The notes under the pieces are model-generated. The model ran no database searches. It was not told where the DNA came from and saw nothing but the letters and a program-made list of their open reading frames with translations. From Natrinema hispanicum (GTDB lineage: Archaea; Halobacteriota; Halobacteria; Halobacteriales; Natrialbaceae): a stretch of DNA of 64,000 bases. Positions 4,338-6,999 of this stretch are shown piece by piece. The stretch is taken from contig NZ_FOIC01000005.1 in assembly GCF_900111485.1 (NCBI RefSeq), forward strand, positions 1-64,000. Reading direction: 5' to 3'. The first letter of the stretch is position 1. Each line of letters opens with the position of its first letter. The translations under genes were made by a program, and so were the position numbers.

Positions 4338-5450
4338 CTACCGGCGCAAAATCAGCTTCAGCACGTCTTCGTCCTCGAGGACGTGATCCATCCCGACCTG
4401 CTGTTCGTCGTGGGTCGCGCTGGGGCCGCTGACGCGGGCAAAGCGGAACCGCTCTTCCATCTCGCCGCCGAGTTTCTCGATGGCCTCACCGACGGTGGCT
4501 CCTTCTTCGATCACGAGCGGTTCCTCCCAGTCGACGCCGCGACCGGGTTTGTCCATGTAGACCCGGATGAGGCCGAGGTTCTCCCAGATACGGTCTTTGA
4601 GCGCCTCGAGACCCTTCTCTTTCTCGGCGCTGATGAACGTGACTTCTTCGGGGTCGAGATCGCGCTCGCGTAACTGTTCGTCGACGGTCTCTTTGTAGTC
4701 CGGCTGGATCAGGTCGACCTTGTTGACGCAGGTGATCGAGGGGATATACTCGCGGTTGTCCATCAGCCCGTCGACCAGCCGGTCGATGGTGACGTTTTCC
4801 TGCAGGTTGAGGTCGGCGTTGACGTAGCCCTGGTCACGGAGCACGTCCTGAATCGTCTTCTCGTCGAGGTCCTGATCGGTGCTCGAGGTGATCTTGATAC
4901 CGTCTTTGATCTTCGGGCGGACGGTGACTCGCGGGGGTTCCTGGTCGACGCGGATGTTGATGTCGTAGAGTTCCTTCTGCAGGCGGTCGTACTGGTCGAT
5001 CTCGAACACCGAGAGGACGAACACGATCAGGTCGGCGTTGCGGACGACCGCCAGCACCTGCTGCCCGTCGCCTTTCCCTGTCGCCGCGCCCTCGATCAGC
5101 CCCGGTACGTCGAGCAACTGGATGTTCGCGCCGCGGTGGTTCAACATCCCCGGGTTGACATCCAGCGTCGTGAACTCGTAGGAGCCGGTTTCGCTCTCGG
5201 CGTTGGTCAGCGAGTTCAGCATCGACGACTTGCCGACGCTCGGGAAGCCAACCAGCGCGACGGTCGCGTCGCCGTGTTTCTCGACGGAATAGCCGCCACC
5301 GCCGCCCGAACCCGACTGCTGTTTCTCGAGTTTCTCCTTTTTCTCCGCGAGTTTGGACTTCAGCCGGCCGATGTGGGCCTCCGTCGACTTGTTGTAGGGC
5401 GTGTTGGCGATTTCTTCCTCGATTGCCTCGATTTCATCCTCGAGCCCCAT
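4338..5450 (-). CDS. drg: DRG-family (Obg-like) GTPase
   Basis: A 370-aa developmentally regulated GTP-binding protein. An N-terminal helical segment (1-45) is followed by a glycine-rich linker, the G1 loop GFPSVGKSS (68-76), G3 DVPG (114-117) and G4 NKVD. A C-terminal TGS domain ends KLILRR. Archaeal and eukaryotic DRG proteins associate with ribosomes. The start is the ATG at 5450. The longer open frame upstream reads into non-family sequence, and a TTTTT-containing box lies about 26-34 nt before this ATG, consistent with a leaderless mRNA. Confidence 0.95.
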   Translation of the reverse strand: MGLEDEIEAIEEEIANTPYNKSTEAHIGRLKSKLAEKKEKLEKQQSGSGGGGGYSVEKHGDATVALVGFPSVGKSSMLNSLTNAESETGSYEFTTLDVNPGMLNHRGANIQLLDVPGLIEGAATGKGDGQQVLAVVRNADLIVFVLSVFEIDQYDRLQKELYDINIRVDQEPPRVTVRPKIKDGIKITSSTDQDLDEKTIQDVLRDQGYVNADLNLQENVTIDRLVDGLMDNREYIPSITCVNKVDLIQPDYKETVDEQLRERDLDPEEVTFISAEKEKGLEALKDRIWENLGLIRVYMDKPGRGVDWEEPLVIEEGATVGEAIEKLGGEMEERFRFARVSGPSATHDEQQVGMDHVLEDEDVLKLILRR

Positions 5451-5599
5451 TTGTCCGTACACAACCGGTCGTGCCGAAAAACCCTTTCGAGACCCGCACG
5501 CTGAGACGGATCGATGGCCTCGATCCGATACGTCGAAAGAATTACCAATACTAATGGAGTTTCGACACACATAAACGACGGGCCAGCAACCGACCACAT

Positions 5600-5803
5600 A
5601 TGCCAGACGCGTCGCAGCTGCGCGACAGTACACAGATCGTCCTCCCCCGAGAGACACTCGTGGGGCTCGAGACGCAGCTCGATGACGTCTGTACGGTCTC
5701 CGTTTTCGCTGAGGGCGAGGACCACTGCCGGATCGTTGGCAGTCCGGTCGAGATCAAACGGGCCACCGAGTTCCTCACCCGCCACGGCGTCAGCGTGCGC
5801 TGA
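5600..5803 (+). CDS. Small conserved haloarchaeal protein (VNG_1110C-like)
   Basis: A 67-aa protein (MPDASQLRDSTQIVLPRETL...) with an acidic, coding-like composition. From memory it resembles the VNG_1110C-type small haloarchaeal family. The middle (CRIVGSPVEIKRATEFLTRHG) could form a compact alpha/beta fold with a terminal helix. It is divergent from the DRG gene, and the 150-bp spacer should hold both promoters. No function is known to me. Confidence 0.7.
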   Translation: MPDASQLRDSTQIVLPRETLVGLETQLDDVCTVSVFAEGEDHCRIVGSPVEIKRATEFLTRHGVSVR

Positions 5804-5844
5804 CTGCCAGAACCGTTCCTGAGTGATATGAATTTGAGCGCATA

Positions 5845-6206
5845 CCTCCGTCTTCAGGCGGAGGTCCAGCGGTAGGCTCAGCATGCTACTCGCAATCGGT
5901 GGCCAGGCCGGATTTCCATCATAACCGTTTTCATGTGGTTTACCGTAGCATGGAGTGCTACGAATACCGTGAGATGCCGACCCCGAACCACAAGGGGAAA
6001 CGGATCAGCGGTGGTTCGCACGACGATGACATGGTATTCGATGGGGCCTGTTTGACCGGGCCACAGCCCTATACAGGGGAGGAAACGAGAGTTCCTCCGG
6101 TATGCTGCCGGTTCCCCTTGAGTGCGGGTTGGAACCTTGAACGCCACATTCGGCGGAAATCCGATGGTCGGATTCCACGTCCTTCAGGGCGTGGAGGAGG
6201 TCAATT
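5845..6206. mobile_element. IS200/IS605-like palindrome-ended relic (PATE-like)
   Basis: About 360 bp bounded by two hairpins with TTCAGG loops: CCTCCG/CGGAGG at 5845-5864 and CCACG/CGTGG at 6175-6194. The right hairpin is followed by GAGGAGGTCAAT, which resembles the right ends of haloarchaeal IS200/IS605 and IS1341 elements (hairpin, then GGAGGATGTCAA). The interior has no tnpA or tnpB reading frame that I can recognise. This fits a non-autonomous palindrome-associated element or a heavily deleted insertion sequence. The ORFs crossing it do not look coding. Confidence 0.4.
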
Positions 6207-6348
6207 ACTGCCCACCGACTTGACGGCGGTTCTGTTCTACAGATGCGCAAGGCGAGTGCCTGTTCGCGACGCTGCCGGCTGGACCGTTGGACTGCCCAGC
6301 GTGGGCCACACCGTTGTGAGTGGCCGTGGCGGGTCGAAACCAGAATGC
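6207..6348. other. Short non-coding stretch between relic and metal-box promoter
   Basis: With the palindrome-ended relic this completes the 570-bp gap between the small VNG_1110C-like gene and the metal-box promoter. I see no gene, tRNA or clear repeat. The last 20 bases lead into a TATA box. Confidence 0.4.
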
Positions 6349-6373
6349 CTATATTGATTTAGGCCCACCTAAA
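6349..6373 (+). promoter_or_regulatory. TATA box with DtxR-type metal-box palindrome
   Basis: CTATATT at 6349-6355 is centred about 25 nt before the ATG at 6377, the spacing of a leaderless archaeal promoter. Directly downstream, TTTAGG at 6358-6363 and CCTAAA at 6368-6373 form an inverted repeat with a 4-bp spacer. TTAGG-N-CCTAA boxes of this kind are recognised by DtxR-family metal-dependent repressors (SirR/Idr/TroR type) in haloarchaea. Its position between TATA and start would block transcription when bound. Regulation by iron or manganese is inferred. Confidence 0.6.
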
Positions 6374-6376
6374 AAT

Positions 6377-6499
6377 ATGGCGGGAAAGCAGACAGGGAAT
6401 GCGAACCCGGCGTATCGGAACCGATTCGGGGACTGGAACGGCGTCGTCGAAAGACCGATGCACGTCGACTGTTCGCCTATGATGGTGTCTCACCAGTGA
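6377..6499 (+). CDS. 40-aa small ORF behind a metal-box promoter
   Basis: The ORF reads MAGKQTGNANPAYRNRFGDW... and ends ...VSHQ, with TGA at 6497-6499. Support comes from an ideally spaced TATA box, a DtxR-type palindrome just upstream, and a stop codon that overlaps the GTG start of the next gene (GTGA), implying translational coupling. The protein has no membrane segment or metal-binding cluster beyond one Cys and two His. I recognise no family. It could be a leader or regulatory peptide, or the surviving 5' end of a truncated metal-regulated gene. Confidence 0.5.
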   Translation: MAGKQTGNANPAYRNRFGDWNGVVERPMHVDCSPMMVSHQ

Positions 6500-6999
6500 C
6501 CCCCGAGACGACCCCCGGAACGGACGAGTACGCGATGCCGGTCGAAACGATCAGGGCGGCACGAGACACTGTCGCCGCGCTTCAAAGCGCCGAGGGCGAC
6601 TTCGTCGTCTCCTGTCGCGAATCGGGGATTCGACCTGAACCGGTTACGGACGCGCGATTCGACAGCCACAGCGATGCCCAGCAGGCCTGTGACGCCGCTT
6701 GCCGCTATCGCGACGCGATGCGAACGCTGGACCCGTCACTGTCACAGTACGATCTCGTCGTCTCGCCGGTCGACGAGACCGCACTCGAGGTCGCGAGCGT
6801 TCGCGAACAGACCGGGCGACGACGCGCCAACGGACTCCCCGCATCGCGCCGGACCGTGACGCTCGCTGGCACCGGCAGCGACGAGTGGCTTCGCGTCGAG
6901 AACGGCCCGGTCGTTCACTTTACCGGTCCCGATTCACTGCTCGACGACGAGGTCATCGCGCGACAACTGCGGTCGAAACTCGACAAGAAACGCGGCTGA
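6496..6999 (+). CDS. Haloarchaeal protein of unknown function
   Basis: A 167-aa acidic protein. The N-terminal half (AARDTVAALQSAEGDFVVSC, then RFDSHSDAQQACDAACRYRDAM and YDLVVSP) resembles a haloarchaeal domain of unknown function that I associate with the DUF7551/DUF7552 group, an assignment from memory. The C-terminal part (WLRVENGPVVHFTGPDSLLDDEVIARQL) is a short alpha/beta region. The start is GTG at 6496, which overlaps the stop of the small ORF upstream, so both probably lie on one mRNA under the metal box. Function unknown. Confidence 0.7.
   Translation: MTPETTPGTDEYAMPVETIRAARDTVAALQSAEGDFVVSCRESGIRPEPVTDARFDSHSDAQQACDAACRYRDAMRTLDPSLSQYDLVVSPVDETALEVASVREQTGRRRANGLPASRRTVTLAGTGSDEWLRVENGPVVHFTGPDSLLDDEVIARQLRSKLDKKRG

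Follow-up and report, generated by a model that had tools for sequence, protein, structure and literature searches.

A predicted iron-regulon box, a 40-codon open reading frame and a DUF7552 gene at a haloarchaeal locus

Related systems and the layout of the locus

The closest described system is the DtxR-family iron regulon of haloarchaea, with Idr1 and Idr2 in Halobacterium, Idr, SirR and TroR in Haloferax, and a predicted 'ferR' signal (Leyn and Rodionov 2015, cited in PMC11349517). According to PMC11349517, which cites Leyn and Rodionov 2015, all fhu siderophore-transporter genes and operons of Haloferax volcanii carry the predicted iron-regulon signal. Several fhu transporter products of this organism are increased under iron starvation (PMC11349517). 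A second group of relevant systems are the termination-reinitiation gene pairs. Huber et al. 2019 tested 14 pairs of overlapping genes, of which nine were taken from Haloferax volcanii and five from E. coli; they found strict coupling in 13 of them, and that the main use of Shine-Dalgarno motifs in haloarchaea is in reinitiation (PMC6728339). Siderophore ABC operons of the FecBCD/FhuCGD type and the DUF7551-DUF7552 fusion proteins (PF24420 + PF24422) complete the comparison.

The locus described here lies in a stretch of 64,000 nucleotides, referred to as the window, and its features are collected in Table 1. It shares with the haloarchaeal iron regulon a palindromic box, which is found at leaderless promoters of genes for siderophore transporters and other iron functions, and encoded DtxR-family regulators, but its target is a DUF7552 gene, and the likeness of the box to the published motif is one of general type. 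The 4-nt stop/start overlap and a Shine-Dalgarno-like motif inside the upstream ORF are as in the termination-reinitiation pairs (PMC6728339), whereas here the upstream ORF is short and without selection at the peptide level, and the overlap is GTGA instead of ATGA. With the fusion proteins the locus has in common the DUF7552 domain and an upstream box, which in the fusions is often paired at a distance of 36 nt; the window protein, in contrast, lacks DUF7551 and has a C-terminal part peculiar to it (residues 95-167, approximately). Similarity to the siderophore ABC operons is found in nine relatives, where DUF7552 directly follows a binding-protein gene under one box. The clade of the window differs in lacking the binding-protein gene, whose slot is taken by a 40-codon ORF.

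Table 1. Features of the locus (coordinates are those of the window)
Feature	Position	Strand	Remarks
TATA element TATATT	6350-6355	+	invariant in five genomes
Operator TTTAGG-N4-CCTAAA, predicted DtxR-family-type iron-regulon box	6358-6373	+	between TATA element and start codon
40-codon ORF	6377-6499	+	putative 5' end of a leaderless transcript; length and frame kept, peptide not
GGTG, Shine-Dalgarno-like	6484-6487	+	8 nt before GTG; invariant in five genomes
GTGA overlap of short-ORF stop and DUF7552 start	6496-6499	+	TGA 6497-6499, GTG 6496
DUF7552 (PF24422) protein, 167 aa	6496-6999	+	profile match, model

A sequence-only reading of this DNA had pointed out the TATA element, the palindrome, the ATG (at 6377) and the GTGA overlap, each of which is present as described, and the promoter geometry in that reading, which is of the leaderless kind, is supported. 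The box, TTTAGGCCCACCTAAA, is a perfect 6-4-6 inverted repeat and the only one in the window, even when up to two mismatches are allowed (0.23 expected from shuffled sequences). The alignment of five genomes contains a run of 29 invariant bases (6335-6363) which holds the TATA element and extends up to TTTAGG, while the sequence farther upstream is divergent or unalignable among the relatives. The ATG follows the end of the box at an offset of 4 nt; for siderophore-binding-protein genes this offset is 4-6 nt.

Upstream of the promoter a non-autonomous IS200/605-like element of about 377 bp is inserted (5828-6204). Its 3' end scores with the Rfam HgcC/sot RNAs, below threshold. Four more near-full copies with 95-98% identity are present in the genome, and a relative resembling N. 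hispanicum shows the uninterrupted site.

DUF7552 and its association with the box

The gene downstream of the short ORF had been regarded as unknown; it can now be placed in the haloarchaeal family DUF7552, whose members repeatedly bear the box. The 167-aa protein matches PF24422 with 90.1 bits (gathering cut-off 27, E 1e-25), and no signal peptide was seen in it. Its N-terminal domain was modelled as an alpha-beta-alpha-beta fold with a mean pLDDT of 91. Structure searches of the PDB with the full protein and the N-terminal domain gave no match below E 0.4, and a profile search of PDB sequences gave a single insignificant match (E 0.82). The domain occurs in 196 of the 292 sampled genomes of the class; Haloferax volcanii was its sole carrier among the 14 genomes searched as controls, and the matches in the named plasmid records searched were only distant. 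None of the papers searched names DUF7552, and an earlier listing in the original regulon study (Leyn and Rodionov 2015) is possible.

A box is present at each of the 19 short-type DUF7552 loci compared, among them that of the window; it lies either in the gene's own promoter or in the promoter of the directly preceding gene. At nine of these loci DUF7552 starts 1-3 nt after a binding-protein gene encoding 371-401 aa, whose ATG lies 4-6 nt past the box and whose product carries a twin-arginine/lipobox-like stretch at the N-terminus; the five binding proteins that were tested are all Peripla_BP_2. Another 40 DUF7552 genes were examined, most of which belong to other genera and families. For 24 of them a box was found at a distance of no more than 400 nt, exact in 23 cases, against an expectation of about 1e-5; the other 16 have none within this distance, and some of these carry a box farther off in the 4 kb stretch. 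The paralogue in the same genome is a DUF7551-DUF7552 fusion preceded by two promoter boxes 36 nt apart, and such paired boxes recur at the fusion genes of many members of the genus. As judged from these sequence comparisons, the linkage of the box to DUF7552 is ancient, which is the strongest result of the analysis. The regulon is of a known kind, and the DUF7552 gene is a real and conserved member of it, which is a useful new lead for an uncharacterised family.

The fusion paralogue is located on contig C49, at 4788-5708 of the stretch examined, and a DUF7260 gene follows it. Nearby ORFs resemble, by eye, a NifU-type scaffold gene and haem-synthesis genes (hemC-like).

The position of the short ORF raises the question of its origin. 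It might be the remnant of a binding-protein gene that underwent internal deletion while promoter and start were kept, which would be compatible with a role as a translated spacer. The arrangement of box, ATG, binding protein and DUF7552 in relatives, with the same order and spacing, speaks for this origin, whereas the DNA similarity of the short ORF to the nine binding-protein genes is not above the shuffled background, a result that decay could also produce. A recognisable piece of such a gene was thereby rejected, and we regard descent by deletion as conceivable but doubtful.

The 40-codon ORF and the start of DUF7552

The nearest named relatives of the window's genome are Natrinema limicola, Natrinema hispanicum and Haloterrigena sp. 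H1. The 40-codon ORF was found in five genomes only, all from one genus. In these five genomes the ATG, the stop, the frame and the box-to-GTG distance of 138 nt are identical, and no indel is present in the ORF, of which about half of the columns vary. In the 220 nt of 3' flank, the between-clade comparisons show 4-7 indels. Conservation beyond the box, a check that had been suggested earlier, is seen for ATG, length, frame and GTGA overlap but not for the amino acids. Between two clades the short ORF shows dN of 0.41-0.49 and dS of 0.20-0.52, and DUF7552 shows dN of about 0.07 and dS of 0.37-0.42 (dN/dS about 0.17). Since dN of the short ORF is about equal to dS, with no sign of purifying selection on the 40-aa peptide, and since variable sites are evenly distributed over codon positions (14, 23 and 20; p=0.33), the peptide is under no detectable constraint. 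No domain match above cut-off was obtained for it. The chance that the frame stays open in all five genomes was calculated as 0.17 for an open ancestor and 0.05 for a random one. An open frame by chance is thus not rare, and what speaks for translation of the short ORF is the geometry of the promoter together with the lack of indels.

When two of the relatives are compared, 32% of the sites in the 117-nt leader are different, as against 17% of the third positions in DUF7552 and about 6% of the 3' flank. This contrast is suggestive of recombination with a breakpoint close to the GTG.

The GTGA overlap is retained in all five genomes, and its GTG is the sole in-frame start kept in the five close relatives, two of which have ACT or ACG in place of the internal ATG at 6535. 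The translational coupling that had been proposed for the two genes is likely. The GGTG motif is presumably complementary to the 3' end of 16S rRNA, and a GTG preceded by this weak motif is a modest start. In four genomes the DUF7552 frame is open through the leader, to a length of 208 aa, but such a long extension was rejected, because the window offers no start codon for it and one relative has a TAG in it.

The 120-nt stretch could also be a plain 5' UTR with a fortuitous ATG, the ribosomes loading directly at the GTG by means of GGTG. The neutral drift of the peptide, the invariance of GGTG at standard spacing and the fact that an open frame of such length is not rare by chance agree with this explanation. 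It does not account for an ATG at the 4-nt box offset that is typical of genuine first genes of the regulon, nor for zero indels over about 120 nt despite rapid divergence. A conserved RNA structure was not found in the 120-nt leader either (covariation term positive; z from -1.4 to +0.8). A plain 5' UTR is in our view unlikely, and a translated short ORF is preferred.

The iron regulon and the proposed mode of expression

A pattern search of the 3.96-Mb genome gave 13 exact boxes, where 0.003 (third-order Markov model) or about 0.06 (base composition) would be expected. In the genome stretches examined, the arms of all 13 exact pairs are spaced by 4 nt and none by 0-3 or 5-12 nt. On contig C74 boxes are situated 5-7 nt before the starts of genes for a FecCD permease, two Peripla_BP_2 proteins, a DUF5059/copper-binding protein and a CARDB-domain protein. 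Further boxes precede an SBP_bac_6 (Fbp-like) binding-protein gene on contig C54 and an ABC ATPase gene with a TOBE_2 domain on contig C53, and degenerate boxes with two mismatches are found near a ferritin/Dps-family gene on contig C71. Because the exact copies are far above expectation and have siderophore-transporter genes as neighbours, the box is, on sequence evidence, a genuine DtxR-family-type iron-regulon box, whose type was correctly recognised in the sequence-only reading. The genome encodes two DtxR-family proteins in which both DtxR domains are present; the forms noted are one of 232 aa, where a FeoA domain accompanies DtxR N and C, and a short one of 142 aa.

Several boxes on contig C54 (190000-209000) precede genes with no obvious link to iron, namely those for an LPG_synthase_TM-type membrane protein, an RGP-type glycosyltransferase, a glycosyl transferase and a Gluconate_2-dh3 protein. 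Inside the siderophore-uptake cluster of contig C74 (6571-9099 of the stretch examined), two boxes at a distance of 34 nt precede a gene for an 824-aa secreted-type protein with DUF5059 and plastocyanin domains. The window's own contig also encodes a DtxR-family regulator, whose FeoA domain is C-terminal (C65:159482-159664).

The earlier suggestion of an iron or manganese response stands as far as a response to metal is concerned, and the content of the regulon favours iron over manganese. The box might serve a manganese-responsive or other regulator, since DtxR-family proteins sense Fe or Mn, at least two candidates are encoded and their specificity is unreadable from sequence. However, the box-linked genes code for components of siderophore and ferric-iron transport, and the fhu genes of Hfx. 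volcanii are reported with a predicted iron-regulon signal (PMC11349517). Another metal or regulator is highly unlikely. The box-linked iron-transport genes, the DtxR-family proteins and the Haloferax volcanii reports together support the assignment to iron well.

In view of the above, the locus is probably an iron-repressed leaderless unit in which the short ORF is translated as a spacer and DUF7552 is reached by reinitiation at the GTG. When iron is present, a DtxR-family repressor with ferrous iron would sit on the box and block initiation. At low iron it would depart, and a leaderless mRNA would begin at or beside the ATG. Ribosomes would then read the 40 codons, terminate at the TGA and reinitiate on the overlapping GTG, aided by GGTG, to produce the DUF7552 protein. 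The short ORF would deliver ribosomes, its peptide probably being dispensable, and in related genomes a siderophore-type substrate-binding-protein gene takes its place. We deduce the repressor action between TATA element and start, the leaderless initiation and also the reinitiation from the anatomy of the locus and from work on Haloferax (PMC6728339). That the 40-aa ORF encodes a conserved functional protein, for example an iron-responsive small protein acting with DUF7552, is very improbable: the five genomes keep its ATG, stop, length and frame without indels, but it is confined to these genomes of one genus, has no domain match and shows none of the peptide-level selection expected of such a protein. 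Peptide drift, the indel-free ORF, the sole conserved GTG, the invariant GGTG and the position of the ATG, taken together, favour a translated spacer with reinitiation over a microprotein.

From its regulation and gene order, we guess that DUF7552 works inside the cell as an accessory protein, either in the uptake of ferric siderophores or in iron use. A more far-reaching and tentative proposal is that the short ORF is a selected leader of which only the length matters, and which took the place of a transporter gene and ties DUF7552 obligately to leaderless translation under iron control; the DUF7552 protein would then be a new, class-wide cytoplasmic component in the archaeal use of ferric siderophores. 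If this is true, its role could be, for example, in iron release or in transporter control. The locus offers a clean natural test of a leaderless short ORF as a pure spacer for ribosome delivery. For DUF7552, present in about two thirds of the sampled haloarchaeal genomes, the box and the partnership with siderophore-binding proteins provide a first testable function.
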